62,736 nt of DNA from an uncultured Alphaproteobacteria bacterium (GTDB lineage: Bacteria > Pseudomonadota > Alphaproteobacteria > Rhodobacterales > Rhodobacteraceae), in NCBI GenBank assembly GCA_902596985.1, contig CACJWR010000005.1:1-62736 (forward strand), given 5' to 3'. Position 1 is the stretch's first letter; every line of letters begins with the position of its first letter. The position numbers were made by a program, and so were the translations under genes. Shown in pieces: positions 27,370-60,998 of the stretch. Below the pieces are notes generated by a model that searched no databases, was not told where the DNA came from, and worked only from the letters and a program-made list of their open reading frames with translations.

Positions 27370-28158
27370 ATGAATGATCTTAGTTACACAGCAAAGGTTT
27401 TTAAAACGGTATGGGTTTCTGACGTTCACTTGGGTACCAAAGGGTCGAGGGCTAAGGAGTTTTTAGAATTTCTGAAAACTATAGAATGTGAAAAAATTTT
27501 TCTGGTAGGAGATATAGTAGATGGATGGCAACTGTCTAAACGATGGTACTGGCCTCAGACGCATAATGATGTTGTGCAGAAGATTTTGGAAAAAGCAAAG
27601 AGAGGTACAGAAATTATTTTTATTCCAGGCAATCATGACGAAGTGGCCAGGGACTTTATAGGTCTAACCATGGGGGGAATAAAAGTTAAGGACGACGATA
27701 TACATTTTACGGCTGATGGCAAAAAATTCTGGGTGGTCCATGGCGATTTATTCGACAATGTAATCCAGCACGCAAGATGGCTTGCCTATATTGGTGACTG
27801 GGCGTATGTATTCCTGTTGAAAATAAACGCTGTTTTTAATGCAATTCGGCGTCTCTTTAAACTCCCGTATTGGTCGCTCTCTCAATACTTAAAATCAAAA
27901 GTGAAGCTAGCTGTCTCTTTCATGTCTGCCTTTGAAAAGTCTATAGTGACGGAGACAAGGCGAAGAGGTTGTGACGGTGTAATTTGTGGTCACATTCATA
28001 AGGCTGAGATGAAAATGGTTGAAGATATAATCTACGCCAATGATGGAGACTGGGTAGAGTCAATGACTGCCTTAGTTGAGAATTTTGACGGAAAACTTGA
28101 AATAATCGAATGGTCGAAAACAAAAGGTAAATTGACACCCGTTGAAGGTGTTAAGTAG
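27370..28158 (+). CDS. plcP: PlcP-type metallophosphoesterase (phospholipase C of phosphate starvation)
   Basis: The 262-residue protein has all binuclear metal-site blocks of the calcineurin-like family: SDVHLG, GDIVDGW, GNHDE, VHGDLFD and CGHIHKAEM. It lacks a signal peptide. LpxH-like proteins of this kind paired with a glycosyltransferase are PlcP, which cuts phosphatidylglycerol or phosphatidylethanolamine to diacylglycerol under phosphate starvation. Here the agt gene overlaps its end by 17 bases, and phoB is immediately beyond in convergent orientation. Together with the candidate Pho box this favours PlcP over lipid A enzyme LpxH. Confidence 0.85.
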   Translation: MNDLSYTAKVFKTVWVSDVHLGTKGSRAKEFLEFLKTIECEKIFLVGDIVDGWQLSKRWYWPQTHNDVVQKILEKAKRGTEIIFIPGNHDEVARDFIGLTMGGIKVKDDDIHFTADGKKFWVVHGDLFDNVIQHARWLAYIGDWAYVFLLKINAVFNAIRRLFKLPYWSLSQYLKSKVKLAVSFMSAFEKSIVTETRRRGCDGVICGHIHKAEMKMVEDIIYANDGDWVESMTALVENFDGKLEIIEWSKTKGKLTPVEGVK

Positions 28159-29158
28159 AGCCGATTTGTCAAAAATAGTTATTATAACCGATGCGTGGAC
28201 ACCTCAAGTTAATGGGGTTGTCGTTTGTATACAGCAAACTGTTAAACACCTTAGAAAGATGGGACACGATGTTTTTGTTATCGGACCTGACCGCTTTAAA
28301 AATATTCCCTGCCCAACCTATCCGGAAATAAGATTGGCCCTCTTCGCAAGAAAGAAGGTTTTTGCTATCCTTGATGATTTAAAACCGGACGCACTCCATG
28401 TTAATACAGAAGGTCCTCTCGGAATAGCAGCTCGATCGTACGCTCAGAAAAATAAAATGCGTTATACAACCGCTTTTCAAACACGTTTTCCAGAGTACAT
28501 AAAAGCGCGAACAGCAATCCCATTGTCCTGGACATACGCTTTTCTGAGATGGTTCCATAAAAACTCTGAGAGAGTGCTTGTTCCTTCCAAAACAGTTCAA
28601 GAAGATCTCATCAAATGGAATGTGGGAAAACCTGAGGTATGGTCCTTGGGAGTCGATCTTTCAACATTTCAACCAAAGAAAAGAACTTCTAGAAAGAAAA
28701 AAGTATATGTGTGCACAAGTCGACTAGCTATAGAGAAAAATTTAGATGCGTTCCTAGGTCTGAAACTCGATGGGGAAAAATGGATGATAGGCAGTGGCCC
28801 AGAAGAAAAAAGGCTCAGAGAAAAATATCCAGACGTCAAATTTCTTGGAAATAAAAGTCATGAGGAAATAGCAAATATTTATCAAGAGTGTGATTATTTC
28901 GTCTTTCCATCAAAAACCGATACTTTTGGATTGGTGTTGCTCGAAGCAATGGCATGTGGGCTCCCTGTTGCTGCATATAATGTTTCCGGTCCGAAAGATA
29001 TTATCGGCAAATCGAAAGCAGGAATCCTAAGAGAAGATTTGGCTGAAGCAGCACGAGGATTAGAATCGCTTAGTGCATCGACTGCTATAAAACATGCAAA
29101 GAAGTTTTCGTGGGAAAAAGCATCAGAGAATTTTTTTTCTTATCTACATATAGGATGA
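28142..29158 (+). CDS. agt: Glycosyltransferase of PlcP-linked glycolipid synthesis (Agt type)
   Basis: The 338-residue GT4-type glycosyltransferase opens with IVIITDAWTPQVNGVV and ends with the donor-site block ECDYFVFPSKTDTFGLVLLEAMACGLPVAA (two parts, with EAMACGLPV typical). Paired with plcP it is expected to move sugar from UDP-sugar onto diacylglycerol, making the glycolipids that replace phospholipids. Starts at TTG 28142 or GTG 28148 are both possible inside the plcP end. Only seven bases separate its stop from the phoB stop. Confidence 0.82.
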   Translation: MKVLSRADLSKIVIITDAWTPQVNGVVVCIQQTVKHLRKMGHDVFVIGPDRFKNIPCPTYPEIRLALFARKKVFAILDDLKPDALHVNTEGPLGIAARSYAQKNKMRYTTAFQTRFPEYIKARTAIPLSWTYAFLRWFHKNSERVLVPSKTVQEDLIKWNVGKPEVWSLGVDLSTFQPKKRTSRKKKVYVCTSRLAIEKNLDAFLGLKLDGEKWMIGSGPEEKRLREKYPDVKFLGNKSHEEIANIYQECDYFVFPSKTDTFGLVLLEAMACGLPVAAYNVSGPKDIIGKSKAGILREDLAEAARGLESLSASTAIKHAKKFSWEKASENFFSYLHIG

Positions 29159-29165
29159 GAAGTCG

Positions 29166-29861
29166 CTAACTATAGTTTTCATTAAGTGAATAACCTGCAC
29201 TTCTTACAGTTCGTATAGGATCCTTTTTCACTTTACCCCTATTGAGCGCTCTTCGTAAACGCCCCACATGGACATCAACAGTTCGTTCCTCAACGTAGAT
29301 CTGATTGCCCCAGACTTTATCTAACAATTGCTCCCTGTTAAATACTTGTCCTGGCCTCATTAGAAAAACTTCAAGTAACTTAAATTCCACAGGCCCTAAT
29401 TTTATTTCCTTTTTACCTCTAAATACTCTTTTGTTATCACGGTTTAATTCAATGTCATGAAAATTTAAAGTGTCTGTAAAACTGTCTTCACTCACGCGTC
29501 TAAGAAGAGCTTTCGTTCGGGCAATTAATTCAGAGTTTGAAAAGGGCTTGGTTATATAGTCATCAGCTCCGGTGTCGAAAGCTCTCAATTTATCACTTTC
29601 TTCAGTTCGCGCTGTGAGCATTATGACAGGTATTTTTTTTAATTTCTTGGATGAACGTATTTGCCTTAATATTTCCGAACCAGATAGATTTGGAAGCATC
29701 CAATCCAAAATGACAAGGTCCGGTGTCTCATGCCTAACTAAGTCAATAGCGCTTTCACCATCAGAGCATTTAGTTACCTCGTAGCCTTCCTTAGAAAAAT
29801 TGTATTCTATAATTTCTTGAATGTCCTTATCATCTTCAACAAGCAAAATTTTATGTTTCAT
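29166..29861 (-). CDS. phoB: Phosphate regulon response regulator PhoB
   Basis: The 231-residue OmpR-class regulator has the receiver with LVILDWMLPNLSG (phospho-acceptor Asp), MLTAR, and KPFS with the conserved Lys. The C-terminal winged helix has GPVEFKLLEVFLMRPGQVFNREQLLDKVWG and VDVHVGRLRRAL. It binds Pho boxes of the type listed across this window. It is the last gene of phoR-pstSCAB-phoU-phoB. Confidence 0.96.
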   Translation of the reverse strand: MKHKILLVEDDKDIQEIIEYNFSKEGYEVTKCSDGESAIDLVRHETPDLVILDWMLPNLSGSEILRQIRSSKKLKKIPVIMLTARTEESDKLRAFDTGADDYITKPFSNSELIARTKALLRRVSEDSFTDTLNFHDIELNRDNKRVFRGKKEIKLGPVEFKLLEVFLMRPGQVFNREQLLDKVWGNQIYVEERTVDVHVGRLRRALNRGKVKKDPIRTVRSAGYSLNENYS

Positions 29862-36520: not shown

Positions 36521-37771
36521 TCAAGTTTTTTTTGCCAAAATTGCAATAAAATAACTGGAACAAACTAAAAAGACCGTCGTAAAGAATAAGCAAAGGCTAA
36601 GCCCGCCCAACTGATAGCTAACTCCAGATAATAGTGTTCCAAAAAAGCGACCCACTGCGTTAGCTGAATAGTAAAAACCAACATCTTCGGATGCATTTTT
36701 TTTACTTGTTAACTTTAATATCAAATAAGAATGGATGCTTGAATTAATTGCAAAAAAACCTCCAAATAGAAAAAGTAAAGTGATTATTATTACAATCAGC
36801 GTCACTGACAGAGTGTTATCAAAAACAAAAGTTAACAAAGTTAAAAATAAGGTAGGGAAAATTACAATAATGGACCAGCGAAAAGCACTAGATTCTATAT
36901 TTAAATCAGTTTTTCTTTGAATAATTGCTGGCACTTGAGATTGTACGAAGCCATAAAAAATGACCCATAGAGCCATGAAGCTGCCTACCAAAAGGAAAAC
37001 AACTTTACCGTTTGATCCCGTAACAAACATAGTTGAAAACACTTCCAATAAAAACAAAGGAATTCCAATTACGAACCAAATGTCTCGTGCACCAAACAAG
37101 AAAATTCTCGACAAAGAAAGATAATTTATACTGGAAATGTCAGAAAAAAACTTTCCTTCTGATTGTACTCTATTTGATTTTGTATTTAATTCAGGCGTTT
37201 TTAACACTGGGTTCAACGCAATCATTAGAGCTATAAACAAAATGAAGGCAAGAATATATAAAGAGATTGAGAAGGGATGAATGGTAATCAAAAAAGCACC
37301 AACAAAAAAACCTAACCCTTTAACAGTATTTTTGGATCCTGTGAGCCAACTGACGTTCCTAAAAAGCTTCCCTTTAATATTTTCATTGCTTAGAAACTTT
37401 ACGGCTGTCTTACTTCCTATTTTAGTCAAATCTTTAGCGACACCACAGAGACCTTGAAAAAAGATAAGGCAAAAAATCATAAACCATTCTGGGCTATTAA
37501 TCGAAAGAAGGCCAAGTGATGTTAGGCTTAATACCTGCAGGCTAGTACCAGCTATCAAGAGGGTGGATAATCCAAAGCGACGACCAAAAATGCCAGCCAT
37601 AAAATTTGTAATAACACCCATAAATTCGTAGAGTAGAAATATATAAGCGAGAGTAAAAGGAGAATAGCCTTTATCATGAAAATGCATTAGCACTAACATT
37701 CGTAAAGCACCATCGGTCAGCATCAAAAACCAATAAATAATCGATACATTTAAAAATGGATTGAATATCAA
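36521..37771 (-). CDS. arsJ: ArsJ-type organoarsenical efflux permease (MFS)
   Basis: This 416-residue MFS protein has twelve helices and follows a dedicated GAPDH gene by 12 bases. That pair is the known ArsJ system: the GAPDH makes unstable 1-arseno-3-phosphoglycerate from arsenate and glyceraldehyde-3-phosphate, and ArsJ expels it. LTDGALRMLVLMHFHDKGYSPF at the start (conserved core DGALRMLVLMHFHD) and LLYEFMGVITNFMAG are ArsJ-typical. No arsR or arsC is present; control appears to be by PhoB. Confidence 0.88.
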   Translation of the reverse strand: MIFNPFLNVSIIYWFLMLTDGALRMLVLMHFHDKGYSPFTLAYIFLLYEFMGVITNFMAGIFGRRFGLSTLLIAGTSLQVLSLTSLGLLSINSPEWFMIFCLIFFQGLCGVAKDLTKIGSKTAVKFLSNENIKGKLFRNVSWLTGSKNTVKGLGFFVGAFLITIHPFSISLYILAFILFIALMIALNPVLKTPELNTKSNRVQSEGKFFSDISSINYLSLSRIFLFGARDIWFVIGIPLFLLEVFSTMFVTGSNGKVVFLLVGSFMALWVIFYGFVQSQVPAIIQRKTDLNIESSAFRWSIIVIFPTLFLTLLTFVFDNTLSVTLIVIIITLLFLFGGFFAINSSIHSYLILKLTSKKNASEDVGFYYSANAVGRFFGTLLSGVSYQLGGLSLCLFFTTVFLVCSSYFIAILAKKT

Positions 37772-37783
37772 CAGGAGGAAAGC

Positions 37784-38788
37784 CTATTCTCGGATTAATT
37801 TAGATAAGATGTCAACCATTCTACAGGCGTATCCCCATTCATTATCATACCAGGCATATATCTTAAGCTGGGTTTTATTTACGACCATAGTTGAAAGAGA
37901 GTCGATAATTGCTGAGTGGGGATTATTAACATAATCAGATGACACCAAGGGTTTTTCTTCATAAGATAAGATATCTCTCAAATAGGTATTTGAAGCTTCG
38001 TTAAAAAGTTGATTAATCTTATCAACTTCTACATTCTGTTTCATCTCAAAAACACAATCAGTCAATGATGCGTTCAAGAGAGGAACTCTTACAGCATGAC
38101 CATTCAGCCTTCCTTTAAGCTCTGGATAAATTAATGAAATTGCCCTAGCTGAGCCCGTGGTCGTGGGGATTAATGAGTTAATTCCGGATCTCGATCGCCT
38201 TAAATTATTTTTTGGAGCATCAACAATAGTTTGAGAGTTTGTAATGTTATGGATAGTTGTAATTGACCCATGCTTTATTCCAATATTTTCTTCGAGAACT
38301 TTTACAATAGGCGCGAGGCAATTAGTGGTACAGCTTGCGGCTGTAAATATTTTATAAGCACTAGTGTCTATGGATTGATGATTTATTCCATAAACAATAT
38401 TCTGGACATTGGATGATTCTATAGGGGCAGAAATTAATACGTATGATGCCTTTCTTTCGAAGTATGGCTCAAGTAATTTTTCTGATTTATTCACGCCAGT
38501 GCAATCTACTACCAGAAACTTTTCAGATTTAGGAAAACTAATACTCTCTATAGACCCCTCTGTCATCACAGCTATAGAATGATCTTTGTAATTAAGACAA
38601 CCATTTTCAAAACAAAGGTCATCACCCCAAGTCCCATGAACGGTGTCATATCTTAAAAAATACTCTTGGTCAGAAGCAGACCCTGCTTTCTCATTCACCA
38701 TTAAAATATTTTTATGGAGGTTCTCATCGCATAGTCTTCTAAAGACAAGCTTCCCAATTCTTCCTAACCCGTTAATAATTATTTTCAT
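37784..38788 (-). CDS. ArsJ-associated glyceraldehyde-3-phosphate dehydrogenase
   Basis: The 334-residue protein has the NAD site INGLGRIGKLVFRRL, the catalytic Cys in AASCTTNCLAP, and the ITTIHNITNSQTIVDAP block. That block differs from housekeeping GAPDH (usually TTIHSYTxDQ) and is typical of the arsenic-linked branch. It would use arsenate in place of phosphate. It comes first in the two-gene operon and has a strong Pho box 32 bases upstream of its ATG. Confidence 0.88.
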   Translation of the reverse strand: MKIIINGLGRIGKLVFRRLCDENLHKNILMVNEKAGSASDQEYFLRYDTVHGTWGDDLCFENGCLNYKDHSIAVMTEGSIESISFPKSEKFLVVDCTGVNKSEKLLEPYFERKASYVLISAPIESSNVQNIVYGINHQSIDTSAYKIFTAASCTTNCLAPIVKVLEENIGIKHGSITTIHNITNSQTIVDAPKNNLRRSRSGINSLIPTTTGSARAISLIYPELKGRLNGHAVRVPLLNASLTDCVFEMKQNVEVDKINQLFNEASNTYLRDILSYEEKPLVSSDYVNNPHSAIIDSLSTMVVNKTQLKIYAWYDNEWGYACRMVDILSKLIRE

Positions 38789-38820: not shown

Positions 38821-38838
38821 ATGACAAAAATATGTAAG
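38821..38838 (-). promoter_or_regulatory. Pho box for the gap-arsJ operon
   Basis: On the minus strand CTTACAT-ATTT-TTGTCAT is followed in phase by TTTTTGT. The second half-site is a near-perfect PhoB half-site. Its distance to the ATG (about 32 bases) leaves room for a -10 and a short leader with a CGAGG ribosome site. Confidence 0.75.
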
Positions 38839-50479: not shown

Positions 50480-50508
50480 TAGTCATATTTTTGTCATATA
50501 AATGTCAT
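50480..50508 (+). promoter_or_regulatory. Triple Pho box before the Sel1-repeat gene
   Basis: TAGTCAT, TTGTCAT and ATGTCAT lie at an exact 11-base period. A TATTAT -10-like hexamer follows at 50516-50521. It is one of the cleanest PhoB-type arrays here. Confidence 0.8.
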
Positions 50509-50512
50509 CATA

Positions 50513-51280
50513 ATGTATTATTCAAAAAAATACGCTAAGAAATCCCCATACATTTTAGTATTTATAGCATTTGTCTCGCTTTTAGTGATCGATTTAACTG
50601 GTAAAAAAAAAGAGAAAGATGATATTAGTTTCACGGAGCTCAGCTTCAATAAGGTAATGGCCTATTCGGGCCATCCGGAATATCAATACAAATTAGGAAG
50701 GGCGTATGATAAAGGGCTGTTGGTGTTACAAAATAATGAAGTGGCTATAAAATGGTATAAAAAAGCAGCAAAAAAAAAGCACCCTAAAGCTATGACTAAC
50801 TTGGCATATTTTTATGATCAAGGATTAGTGCTAGAAAAAAACAAAGATAGAGCTCTTGACCTTTATTTGGATGCTGCAAGGTTAGGTAATTCGGTGGCTC
50901 AATACAATGTGGCTCTCATGTACGAGAGTGGAGAAGGCTCTCCAGTAAATATTACAAGAGCAAAATATTGGTACCTTTTGGCTGCCGAGGGTGGAGATTA
51001 TCATGCACAATATAACTTGGCGCTATTACTTGAAAAAGGTAAATGCATCAAGCAAGACCTCAAGAGAGCTCTTTATTGGTATGAAAAAGCTGCCTCATCA
51101 GGCTTAGTAGAGGCACAATTTAATTTAGGCTACATGCATCATATGGGAATCGGCACGAAGCAAAGCTTTTCCGAGGCAATGAAGTGGTATTTGTCGGCTG
51201 CTGATAATGGTGATAATGATGCAAAGTTCAATTTGGAGCAAATAAGGATTTTTCTTAAAGAAAAAGCTCATAGAACTTAA
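50513..51280 (+). CDS. Membrane-anchored Sel1-repeat protein under a Pho box
   Basis: The 255-residue protein has a short basic start, a signal-anchor helix (residues 12-28, YILVFIAFVSLLVIDL), and then about five Sel1 repeats of 36 residues with the usual AxxxLGxxYxxGxGVxxDxxxAxxWYxxAA pattern. Examples are ALDLYLDAARLGNSVAQYNV and ALYWYEKAASSGLVEAQFNL. Sel1 proteins are scaffolds. The client is unknown. ATG 50513 lies before the transcription start expected from the Pho box, so a start further in, such as ATG 50657, cannot be excluded. phnG follows after its own promoter. Confidence 0.78.
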   Translation: MYYSKKYAKKSPYILVFIAFVSLLVIDLTGKKKEKDDISFTELSFNKVMAYSGHPEYQYKLGRAYDKGLLVLQNNEVAIKWYKKAAKKKHPKAMTNLAYFYDQGLVLEKNKDRALDLYLDAARLGNSVAQYNVALMYESGEGSPVNITRAKYWYLLAAEGGDYHAQYNLALLLEKGKCIKQDLKRALYWYEKAASSGLVEAQFNLGYMHHMGIGTKQSFSEAMKWYLSAADNGDNDAKFNLEQIRIFLKEKAHRT

Positions 51281-56280: not shown

Positions 56281-56969
56281 AGCAGAGAAAATCTTTTCAG
56301 TTCACAAAAGTAGCTATCATCCCTTTGCCCAAAAAGACAGATATCTAAAAAAGGTAAGGGATATCCGATAACTTTTTGAAAATTTAATTCTATTGTTTCT
56401 CGAATATTTTTCTCTTCACCCAATCTTATTTCTCCAGTTAATGTAATATGAAATTTATATTTATTGAACACATATGGATAACCCCACTTCTTTAAATTTA
56501 CCTCCTCCTGAAAATCAAGTCCATTAGATCTTCTTTTTTCTAGTTCTGTAGATGAAGGAGGTTTTCTAAACTTATCTAGAGATGAAACGCAATCATCTGC
56601 TAAAGATTTTAGCGCCTTAGTGCTTCTTTCAGGAACTAAAGCATAAAAGCTGCCAAGCTTTTTTAAGACTAGATTTCGGATTATAAACTTACGATGTCGC
56701 TTTGAAATTAATTCTACATCGCTTATTAGATCTTTGTATGAATATTTTTCTTTTAGTACAAATGGTGCTTTGAGTGTGCCATGTAAGCCATATATCCTTG
56801 CTTTTTCCGTGATAGACTTTAAGTTAACAAATTTCGGATTTTTTATTTTCTTGTGGTTGGTAATCTTTCCTTTCTTTGGATTCCAGCCTAACCATCGAGA
56901 CCCAACTTTATCGAGAAATGTATCTGGATAGGGAGAAAAATAAATTGCGTATCTGGAATAATTTGTCAT
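56277..56969 (-). CDS. DUF1045 2H-phosphoesterase of phosphonate clusters
   Basis: The 230-residue protein opens with RYAIYFSPYPDTFL and has two HxT motifs, HGTL at residue 63 and HITL at residue 174, the two-histidine site of the 2H phosphoesterase superfamily. DUF1045 proteins recur in alphaproteobacterial phn clusters. No PhnP gene, which opens the cyclic ribose phosphate made by PhnJ, is seen in this window. A role in that step is a reasonable inference. A weak left-facing pair (GTTTCAT and ATATTTC at 57003-57020) may be its PhoB site. Confidence 0.85.
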   Translation of the reverse strand: MTNYSRYAIYFSPYPDTFLDKVGSRWLGWNPKKGKITNHKKIKNPKFVNLKSITEKARIYGLHGTLKAPFVLKEKYSYKDLISDVELISKRHRKFIIRNLVLKKLGSFYALVPERSTKALKSLADDCVSSLDKFRKPPSSTELEKRRSNGLDFQEEVNLKKWGYPYVFNKYKFHITLTGEIRLGEEKNIRETIELNFQKVIGYPLPFLDICLFGQRDDSYFCELKRFSLL

Positions 56970-59326: not shown

Positions 59327-59749
59327 TTATCTTGAAAGAAGCAGATACAAGTCGGGATTGTCTATCAACAGCATGGCAACTGCAGTACCACATATCGCGG
59401 ATCCAATCATTAGTGCTCTGTCGCTCCATTGCATGCCGACATATATCCATCCGATGGCACTAAAGAAATAACACAATTGCCCGAAAATATACATTTTTCC
59501 TGATGTAAGAAATACTCCTAATACACACAATATCATGGCTCCCCATTTAACATACCAATCTCTTGTACCAGTAGGCGTAAGAGGTTTAATGTCATCGTAC
59601 TCGCCTTGTAATTCCTCTAGCTCTTGAGCAAGCCTCTTTTTTTCAGACGCTAACTCCATTGCTAGTCTTCCTGCTTTAGTAGTTATATTATGTAATTTGC
59701 CGTCTTCGCCTAATTCAGTGATGGTATCAGCGTCTCTTTCCTTCGACAT
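59327..59749 (-). CDS. Conserved-looking membrane protein of unknown function
   Basis: Not recognised. The 140-residue protein starts with a charged segment (MSKERDADTITELGEDGKLH), a predicted coiled coil (residues 23-52), and then three hydrophobic helices (about 69-85, 88-105 and 110-135). ATG 59749 is chosen because AGGAAG precedes it; the longer frame from 59815 would cover its promoter. Confidence 0.6.
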   Translation of the reverse strand: MSKERDADTITELGEDGKLHNITTKAGRLAMELASEKKRLAQELEELQGEYDDIKPLTPTGTRDWYVKWGAMILCVLGVFLTSGKMYIFGQLCYFFSAIGWIYVGMQWSDRALMIGSAICGTAVAMLLIDNPDLYLLLSR

Positions 59750-59815: not shown

Positions 59816-59893
59816 ATAAAAATTAAAAATAGTCTTACAATACGCTTCTAAAGTCCAATTTTAGAAATTGACTAGCTGCTACATCAATGTATC

Positions 59894-59966
59894 AAAAAGA
59901 AAAGGGCCGCCTGCTTACAACGGCCCAGTTGGGAGGGAAATACATACGTGTATTTGAACATCATCT
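59894..59966 (-). ncRNA. Candidate PhoB-controlled small RNA
   Basis: No gene covers this stretch. Reading the minus strand from a start expected near 59966, there is a perfect 7-bp hairpin (AAATACA, CGTA, TGTATTT; 59955-59938), an unpaired C-rich stretch CCCTCCCAACT (59937-59927), then a terminator. The terminator has GGGCCG (59926-59921) and CGGCCC (59909-59904) around an 11-base loop, followed by TTTTCTTTTT (59903-59894). A Pho box points into it from 59989-60006. Length would be about 70 bases. A C-rich single-stranded patch can pair with purine-rich ribosome sites, as seen in several alphaproteobacterial small RNAs. The exact start is an inference. Confidence 0.62.
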
Positions 59967-59988
59967 ATCTTTTAAATGTTAAAGATTG

Positions 59989-60006
59989 ATGACAATTTGA
60001 TGAAAA
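59989..60006 (-). promoter_or_regulatory. Pho box pointing into the candidate small RNA
   Basis: On the minus strand TTTTCAT-CAAA-TTGTCAT, with a third, weaker half-site CTTTAAC in phase. It points away from the acyltransferase gene on the plus strand, and no protein gene starts nearby on the minus strand; the nearest one has its own promoter beyond a terminator. Confidence 0.68.
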
Positions 60007-60096
60007 TTTGAAACCATCATTTAAGTTAATAATTATATTGTTCAATCTAATTTGATTGAAAAAGTACAATCAAAACTTGAGAACTTACTCACGTGG

Positions 60097-60114
60097 ATGT
60101 CATTAATTTTTCAT
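60097..60114 (+). promoter_or_regulatory. Pho box for the acyltransferase gene
   Basis: ATGTCAT-TAAT-TTTTCAT, 55 bases before the ATG at 60169, which is itself preceded by a GAGGCAGG ribosome site. Confidence 0.65.
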
Positions 60115-60168: not shown

Positions 60169-60998
60169 ATGTTGCAAAATAGAAGTCAGACACACCCTGT
60201 GTTTTCATTCGCCGATGGAGAAATGGGTGTAATTTCCAACAAAATAATCCGCTACTTAGAAAAATTAACGGGTCAACCGCGTATAGAAAAACTATATTTT
60301 GACTATGTAAATGATAATCTAAATCCAGAATATTTTTGGTCAGATGCGCTTGACCGACTGCGTATCGAACTAGACATCCGTCGAGAAGTTTCAAATGGAA
60401 TAATGGCATCCATACCGTCTACTGGACGGGTCGTGACCATCGCTATTCATCTGGAGTCATAGATGGACTTGCCTTATGCTCAATTATGGCCGAAGTGCGG
60501 CAGGACTATAAAATCATTACCCACAGGGTATTGAGACAGGCGCCAGCGGTAATGGACAAAATCCTGCCAATAGATTTTGCAGAGACGAAAATTGCGCTTA
60601 AAACAAATATGGAGTCTCGCCGTGGAGCTTTGGAACACCTCAGAAATGGTGGTGCACTTATAATCTTCCCAGCAGGCGCCATATCATTAGCGCCAAATAT
60701 ATTTGGAACTGCAAGTGATGCGCCGTGGAAAACATTTGTTGCGAAATTAGCGTTGCAGCCTGACACAACTACTATTCCGTTCTACTTTGAGGGACGTAAT
60801 TCAGCGTTATTTCAAATTGTGAGAAAAATAAGCTTTACGCTTGGTTATTCACTTATGTTTAGGGAAATTTGTAGAAGAATGGGGACAAATTTAACTGTCA
60901 CGATGCGTCCTTCTATACACAGTTCCAAACTAGCTGAAATGGAAAACCGGAATGTGATCACAGAATATCTCAGGCGCCAAACCTATGATTGGTCTTAG
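60169..60998 (+). pseudogene. Lysophospholipid/ornithine-lipid acyltransferase family gene, frameshifted at the active-site motif
   Basis: Two frames together make one member of the PlsC-like acyltransferase family. The first (60169-60462) has LTGQPRIEKLYFDYVN and IPSTGRVVTIAIH. The second carries SGVIDGLALCSIMAEVR, ITHRVLRQAPAVMDKILPID, GGALIIFPAGAIS, FYFEGRNSALFQI and ends YLRRQTYDWS. They meet at about 60446-60452, where the catalytic NHPxGVxDG motif should be; what remains reads AIH, then SGVIDG. About four bases seem lost. OlsA-like lipid enzymes of this family are induced by phosphate lack in some relatives, and a Pho box is present, so it was probably part of lipid replacement. A sequencing error cannot be excluded. 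Confidence 0.75.

Follow-up and report, generated by a model that had tools for sequence, protein, structure and literature searches.

The locus and the predicted RNA element

The DNA analyzed here (the window) is a stretch of 62,736 nucleotides from an uncultured member of the Rhodobacteraceae, whose assembly (1.83 Mb in 94 contigs, 75% complete, with a G+C content of 35-39% for almost every 5-kb step) is referred to as the source genome. Two divergent genes flank an intergenic region of 419 nt: an acyltransferase gene at 60169..60998 (+) and, at 59327..59749 (-), a gene of the DUF6552 family (PF20189; 40.7 bits, cut-off 27). The acyltransferase reading frame is broken into two in the window, which may reflect either recent pseudogene formation or a mistake in the assembly; its ortholog in the relative L031 is one intact frame and matches Pfam Acyltransf_2 and, at scores far under the respective cut-offs, the acyltransferases OlsF and GlsA. 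The resemblance to OlsF/GlsA would suit, rather than prove, a role in phosphorus-free lipids.

Between these genes, at 60006-59894 of the minus strand, lies an element in which a Pho box, a leader, a hairpin, a C-rich linker and a terminator follow each other in this order. The initial annotation had listed the box, the 7-bp hairpin, the 11-base C-rich stretch and the terminator, and all of them were confirmed. The Pho box, TTTTCAT CAAA TTGTCAT, occupies 59989..60006 (-) and consists of two repeats in 11-bp phase, TTTTCAT at 60006-60000 and TTGTCAT at 59995-59989. A putative -10 element, TAACAT, is located at 59976..59981 (-); the stretch that contains it, TTAACATT, is present in all 15 copies of the element that reach that far, the 16th ending at a contig edge. 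The spacing between box and putative -10 is shorter than in Pho promoters of E. coli.

To describe the variation of each part, we designate the candidate's own copy type as A and the paralogous types as B, C, D and E. A DNA search of 100 relatives and the source genome retrieved near full-length copies in seven congeners (91-98% identity), giving eight aligned copies with the candidate; the close named relatives derive from single cells or metagenomes and are labeled Alphaproteobacteria or Rhodobacteraceae. Lack of conservation in close relatives had been named at the outset as grounds for abandoning the element, and it was indeed found that the unit is kept in all seven. The leader at 59956..59967 (-), near which the RNA probably starts, varies in 8 of 12 columns. 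Hairpin 1 (AAATACA-CGTA-TGTATTT, 59938..59955, minus strand) has seven perfect pairs and one variable column of 18, and 97.6% of its cells are paired in the A, C, D and E copies. It is followed by the αR8-like core UUUCCCUCCC with the linker AACU at 59927..59940 (-), in which CCCUCCCAACU is unpaired and which was aligned to the αR8 core by the model R1 described below; the core and linker segment CCCTCCCAACT (59937-59927) is invariant in all 11 columns. The intrinsic terminator with its T-rich tail spans 59894..59926 (-), with 4 of 33 columns variable, and its stem-loop (59926-59904; eight pairs, six of them G-C) is followed by TTTTCTTTTT. Both hairpins are present in the minimum-energy structure of 59975-59890, the overall stability of which is unremarkable (z -1.52; 13 of 200 shuffles at least as stable).

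Only two minus-strand frames of at least 20 amino acids overlap 59880-60020, and the one over the RNA body (59884-59964) is 26 residues long, its ATG, as judged by eye, missing in five of the eight aligned copies. Neither the frame list nor the eight-copy alignment revealed a conserved protein frame over the RNA body, in agreement with the earlier claim that the element is non-coding.

Relationship to the αR8 RNAs

RNAs of the αR8 group (suhB/MmgR, RF00519) are widespread in Alphaproteobacteria. At gathering thresholds, Rfam returned no match in the whole window; a relaxed scan aligned RF00519 to the candidate in full length and on the correct strand, at 20.1 bits versus a gathering score of 41. 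Two other places in the source genome scored slightly higher (20.9 and 20.4 bits), and the candidate was sixth of 12 when that genome was searched at loose thresholds. It is to be noted that RF00519 is unspecific at E up to 1: 93 of 101 genomes gave a match, and so did 10 of 14 controls. With E limited to 1e-6, a match was obtained for 16 of 149 family genomes, and the source genome was not one of these. The αR8 siblings of the genus mostly fall below the gathering score as well (C54, 32.7; C29, 27.0 bits), with one, G005:C51, passing at 42.1. Several other families appeared in the relaxed searches and were set aside: IS128, which ranked over suhB (25.3 bits, gathering 80), and nine weaker families below suhB, all far under their cut-offs. 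For 6 of the 11 loci from relatives, an S15 leader was matched over the DUF6552 start (21.6-23.9 bits, gathering 39.5), and this was treated as chance.

A covariance model, R1, was built from 19 canonical αR8 RNAs, chosen from 21 distinct stretches (13 of the members from the genus, six from other genera of the family), with the candidate's type excluded. In its alignment, 95.6% of the cells of the two helices are paired, and 5 of 12 pairs are changed on both sides. On the window, the candidate was the sole significant match (33.0 bits, E 1.1e-5), the next reaching 11.3 bits (E 2), and on the whole source genome it had an E of 3.2e-4; these E-values, from a self-built model, are rough. The seven orthologs scored 32.1-33.6 bits, and the paralogs D, E and C 42.1, 38 and 24.8, respectively. 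These scores support homology to other αR8 RNAs, with D and E as bridging paralogs. Higher scores in the source genome belong to the loci C54 (77 bits), C29 (72.2) and C21 (53.6).

The individual features of the group are reproduced in part. The weak hairpin just 5' of the αR8 core has its counterpart in the 7-bp hairpin that ends in the core; the terminator follows directly, with the ACUGGGCC junction common to the siblings of the genus; and the hexamer CCUCCC of the αR8 core is retained. The single-stranded 10-mer UUUCCUCCCU is not: the candidate has UUUCCCUCCC, with one C inserted and the UUU paired, and its 5' hairpin differs, not being alignable to the canonical GUCC/GGAC stem. By sequence and predicted fold, the candidate is a divergent relative of αR8, an αR8-like variant rather than a formal member, since the 10-mer is altered by the extra C; the pairing of the UUU and the differing 5' hairpin likewise speak against plain membership.

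Two further observations concern the canonical siblings. Weak second αR8-like matches (14.6-18.7 bits) occur in L037 (324-391), L035 (5014-5084) and L038 (2197-2267), about 40-50 nt downstream of canonical siblings and on the same strand, and look like degenerate tandem copies. The canonical siblings of the genus, for example those in L142, L143, L066, L067 and L068, also have, by eye, a common upstream stretch resembling ACGTTAACGTCACGTTAT, apparently a shared promoter element distinct from the Pho box.

Pho boxes in the window and upstream of αR8 loci

Pho boxes were scored by the number of letters matching two CTGTCAT words 11 bp apart (maximum 14), with a cut at 11. The RNA's box scores 11, and so does a second box in the same region, ATGTCAT TAAT TTTTCAT at 60097..60114 (+), which lies 90 bp away on the opposite strand, precedes the divergent acyltransferase gene and varies in one of 18 columns. 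Since 18 sites of at least 11 occur across the window, coding sequence included, the score alone is not decisive. Eleven of these lie in or overlap coding sequence; the other seven are within the window's 27 intergenic regions, where 300 dinucleotide shuffles gave a mean of 0.21. For the RNA's 419-nt region, the shuffles gave a P of 0.024 for one or more sites and 0.0012 for the two or more observed. The seven intergenic sites precede genes for GAPDH, phnC, a Sel1-repeat protein (two sites), phnG, the RNA and the acyltransferase, and a site at 56963 that overlaps a gene end precedes phnM; phnG, PhoB and GAPDH were named by curated models, and the names phnC, phnM and Sel1 are those that we presume. 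The gene of the presumed activator, phoB, is itself in the window at 29166..29861 (-) (TIGR02154; 311.9 bits, cut-off 296.2).

A Pho-type box at 38838 (-) stands before the GAPDH gene (37784-38788), which passes the model for ArsJ-associated GAPDH (NF033735; 470.8 bits, cut-off 450) and is followed by an MFS gene at 36521-37771, an arrangement that possibly links arsenate handling to phosphate starvation. Three TGTCAT-like repeats in 11-bp phase at 50480-50513 (+) directly precede the Sel1-type repeat protein gene. At 27370-29158 (+), a metallophosphoesterase gene adjoins one for a family-4 glycosyltransferase, which we take to resemble the PlcP-Agt lipid-remodeling pair.

The RNA's box is unchanged in all 18 columns of the eight copies, which is mild evidence, because variation is low throughout the region between the two genes, at 60 of 419 columns. 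In the seven relatives' loci (7.5-9 kb each), the only sites of at least 11 were the RNA box (7/7), the phnM box (7/7) and the acyltransferase box (6/7). Among 33 other αR8 loci, comprising 30 from the RF00519 genome search and three siblings from the source genome, none had an equally good box upstream, the best scoring 10. The best score was likewise 10 for 9 placeable loci out of 11 further ones of the family, and 9 for the 26 placeable of 31 sibling loci in the genus (eight of the 26 also being within the 33, and one false core match having been set aside).

With two 11-bp-phased repeats upstream, the RNA has the arrangement by which Pho regulon members are recognized, and it seems unlikely from these figures that its predicted box arose by chance. 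We nonetheless considered it possible, though improbable, that an αR8-like RNA is made but not by PhoB, in which case the Pho signal would serve only the acyltransferase or the repeats would be part of an ordinary promoter. In favor of a promoter of a non-Pho kind, paralogs B, C and D retain the promoter region with poorer repeats; in addition, the putative -10 is close to the second repeat, and the candidate is the exception among the αR8 loci examined in having so good a box. Against this reading, the acyltransferase has a box of its own on the other strand, two sites in one region are improbable by chance at the P of 0.0012 given above, and the RNA's box is invariant in the eight copies.

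Conservation, paralogs and gene order

The order of divergent acyltransferase, RNA and DUF6552 is kept in all eight copies. The 19-mer TTTCCCTCCCAACTGGGCC was found exactly in 8 of the 22 genomes of the genus and, with up to three mismatches, 26 times in 14 genomes (reversed control, 3); since the genomes are partly incomplete, absence from the others is not proof of loss. In the named collection, 11 DUF6552 loci had at least 91% identity: seven with the full element, three ending at a nearby contig edge, and one, L077, without the element before a 91% identical gene. At more distant DUF6552 loci, nhmmer found no element. Among the paralogs, B occurs in five genomes and its terminator hairpin lacks the loop and the 3' arm; C is found in genome G020 before a BioY-family gene (bioY), E in G004 before a gene that by eye is near-identical to the former, and D in G005. 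In the alignment of A, C, D and E, 98.9% of the cells are paired and one pair is changed on both sides, although this covariation is weak, since shuffles often reach the same level.

These data also bear on whether the element is functional and separate. That it is a decaying, functionless duplicate of an αR8 gene is quite improbable: while the B copies have lost part of the terminator hairpin and the cores of C, D and E drift, the hairpin, core and terminator of the A copies form a near-invariant body directly beside the fast-changing leader, which disfavors decay. Least probable of all is that the element is merely the 5' leader of DUF6552 with the terminator as an attenuator, as the shared strand, a DUF6552 start about 145 nt past the terminator and the constant gene order might suggest, since it is absent before the 91% homolog of L077 as well as at distant loci and paralogous copies stand before other genes, bioY among them, and since αR8 RNAs are known as stand-alone in the parts consulted of PMC1273637 and PMC12559287. 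Overall, the conserved unit, the covariance-model match, the paralogs elsewhere and the absence before L077 bear out the initial annotation in its proposal that a small RNA is encoded here by a stand-alone gene preceded by a Pho box; it had overlooked the αR8 grouping and the acyltransferase's own box.

Proposed function and target searches

The reading that we prefer, and consider reasonably probable, is a stand-alone, trans-acting αR8-type small RNA gene, duplicated and diverged within a marine Rhodobacteraceae genus, with a predicted PhoB-binding promoter. On this analysis, PhoB would most likely control an anti-Shine-Dalgarno RNA that acts with the assistance of Hfq. When phosphate falls, PhoB would bind 60006-59989, and a transcript of about 65-75 nt would be produced, with its end at the terminator; Hfq would then promote annealing of its single-stranded core, CCCUCCC, with Shine-Dalgarno regions rich in purines, and this pairing would lower the translation of some mRNAs, by the precedent of SisA those with GGGAGG-type leaders. 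The analysis establishes the anatomy of the element, its conservation and its αR8 kinship, together with a phoB gene in the window and Hfq genes in the genus, whereas we infer that the RNA is transcribed, controlled by PhoB, assisted by Hfq and repressive, as well as every target. Hfq is encoded in 15 of 22 genomes of the genus, including both of those that are at least 90% complete, and was not found in the 75%-complete source genome.

The earlier proposal that the CCCTCCC patch masks ribosome sites is plausible because anti-Shine-Dalgarno action is a published mode of αR8 RNAs (PMC12559287, in the parts consulted), but the target prediction suggested along with it gave nothing above control: in the source genome, 102 sites were within one mismatch of GGGAGGGAAA versus 112 for the reversed control. 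The single exact GGGAGGGAAA site besides the element itself is inside a coding sequence, presumably plsX; it is kept in 6 of the 15 genus genomes that have the stretch and in only two of the four of these with copy A, and was therefore dropped as a target. Start codon proximity was checked, with no control, for 30 of the 102 sites, L216, L217 and L236 being the best placed. Duplex energies for the 63 genes of the window, calculated with no shuffled control, had a median of -9.9 kcal/mol, the best (-18.5 kcal/mol) being at the start of the gene at 465-1190. The points that weigh against the preferred PhoB-wired αR8-type reading are an Rfam score of half the gathering value, with two places in the source genome scoring slightly higher, the altered 10-mer, the ordinary fold energy, the general conservation of the intergenic region, the 11 of 18 Pho-type sites in or overlapping coding sequence, the failure to find Hfq in the source genome and the missing target signal.

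More tentatively, it may be speculated that, in a marine lineage, the Pho regulon recruited a duplicated αR8 RNA and the insertion of a single base re-tuned its core, giving a phosphate-starvation arm that lowers the translation of targets distinct from those of its siblings, and that the acyltransferase, perhaps for phosphorus-free lipids, is co-switched on from the same intergenic region. A sibling under PhoB control in this uncultured ocean lineage, with phosphonate and lipid genes next to it, would mean that αR8 paralogs are split by nutrient signal. It would also provide cells living in phosphorus-poor water with an RNA through which the Pho response can repress.

Comparison with known systems

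In the open-licence literature, we found no report of a PhoB-wired αR8 RNA and no match to the phrase PhoB-dependent sRNA, and in the accessible parts of open-licence papers on both, MmgR was not tied to PhoB. Many small RNAs of Sinorhizobium meliloti are changed by phosphate stress, and the word mmgR is absent from the available portion of that text (PMC8829014). The AbcR RNAs (αr15) share CU-rich anti-Shine-Dalgarno motifs with the candidate and have partial homology to suhB (PMC7143759, in part); they differ in being 114-120 nt long with three stem-loops and two motifs, against two hairpins and one motif in the candidate.

Within αR8, SisA-D of Caulobacter crescentus are like the source genome in comprising several siblings with unrelated promoters. 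According to the sections consulted of PMC12559287, SisA uses its anti-Shine-Dalgarno core, together with Hfq, to repress mRNAs, and the 10-mer UUUCCUCCCU is a single-stranded feature of the group; the same sections mention no Pho control of SisA-D and leave open whether the siblings of a genome are redundant or work independently of each other. The sponge CrfA pairs with SisA-D. The suhB RNA dates from a 2005 description, in which it is a small RNA present in multiple copies and not linked to particular neighbors (PMC1273637, in part). Like the candidate, suhB/MmgR (RF00519) of S. meliloti and others have a 5' hairpin, an unpaired C-rich anti-Shine-Dalgarno core and a terminator with a GGGCC stem, and are multi-copy and intergenic; the candidate differs in its core (UUUCCCUCCC, not UUUCCUCCCU), in the UUU inside the hairpin and in scoring under the Rfam gathering value. 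A further difference lies in the input, which for MmgR is reported as NtrC and AniA/PhaR, not PhoB, in the parts seen of PMC7143759 and PMC12542648. PhoB is thus plausibly a new input to a known kind of RNA.
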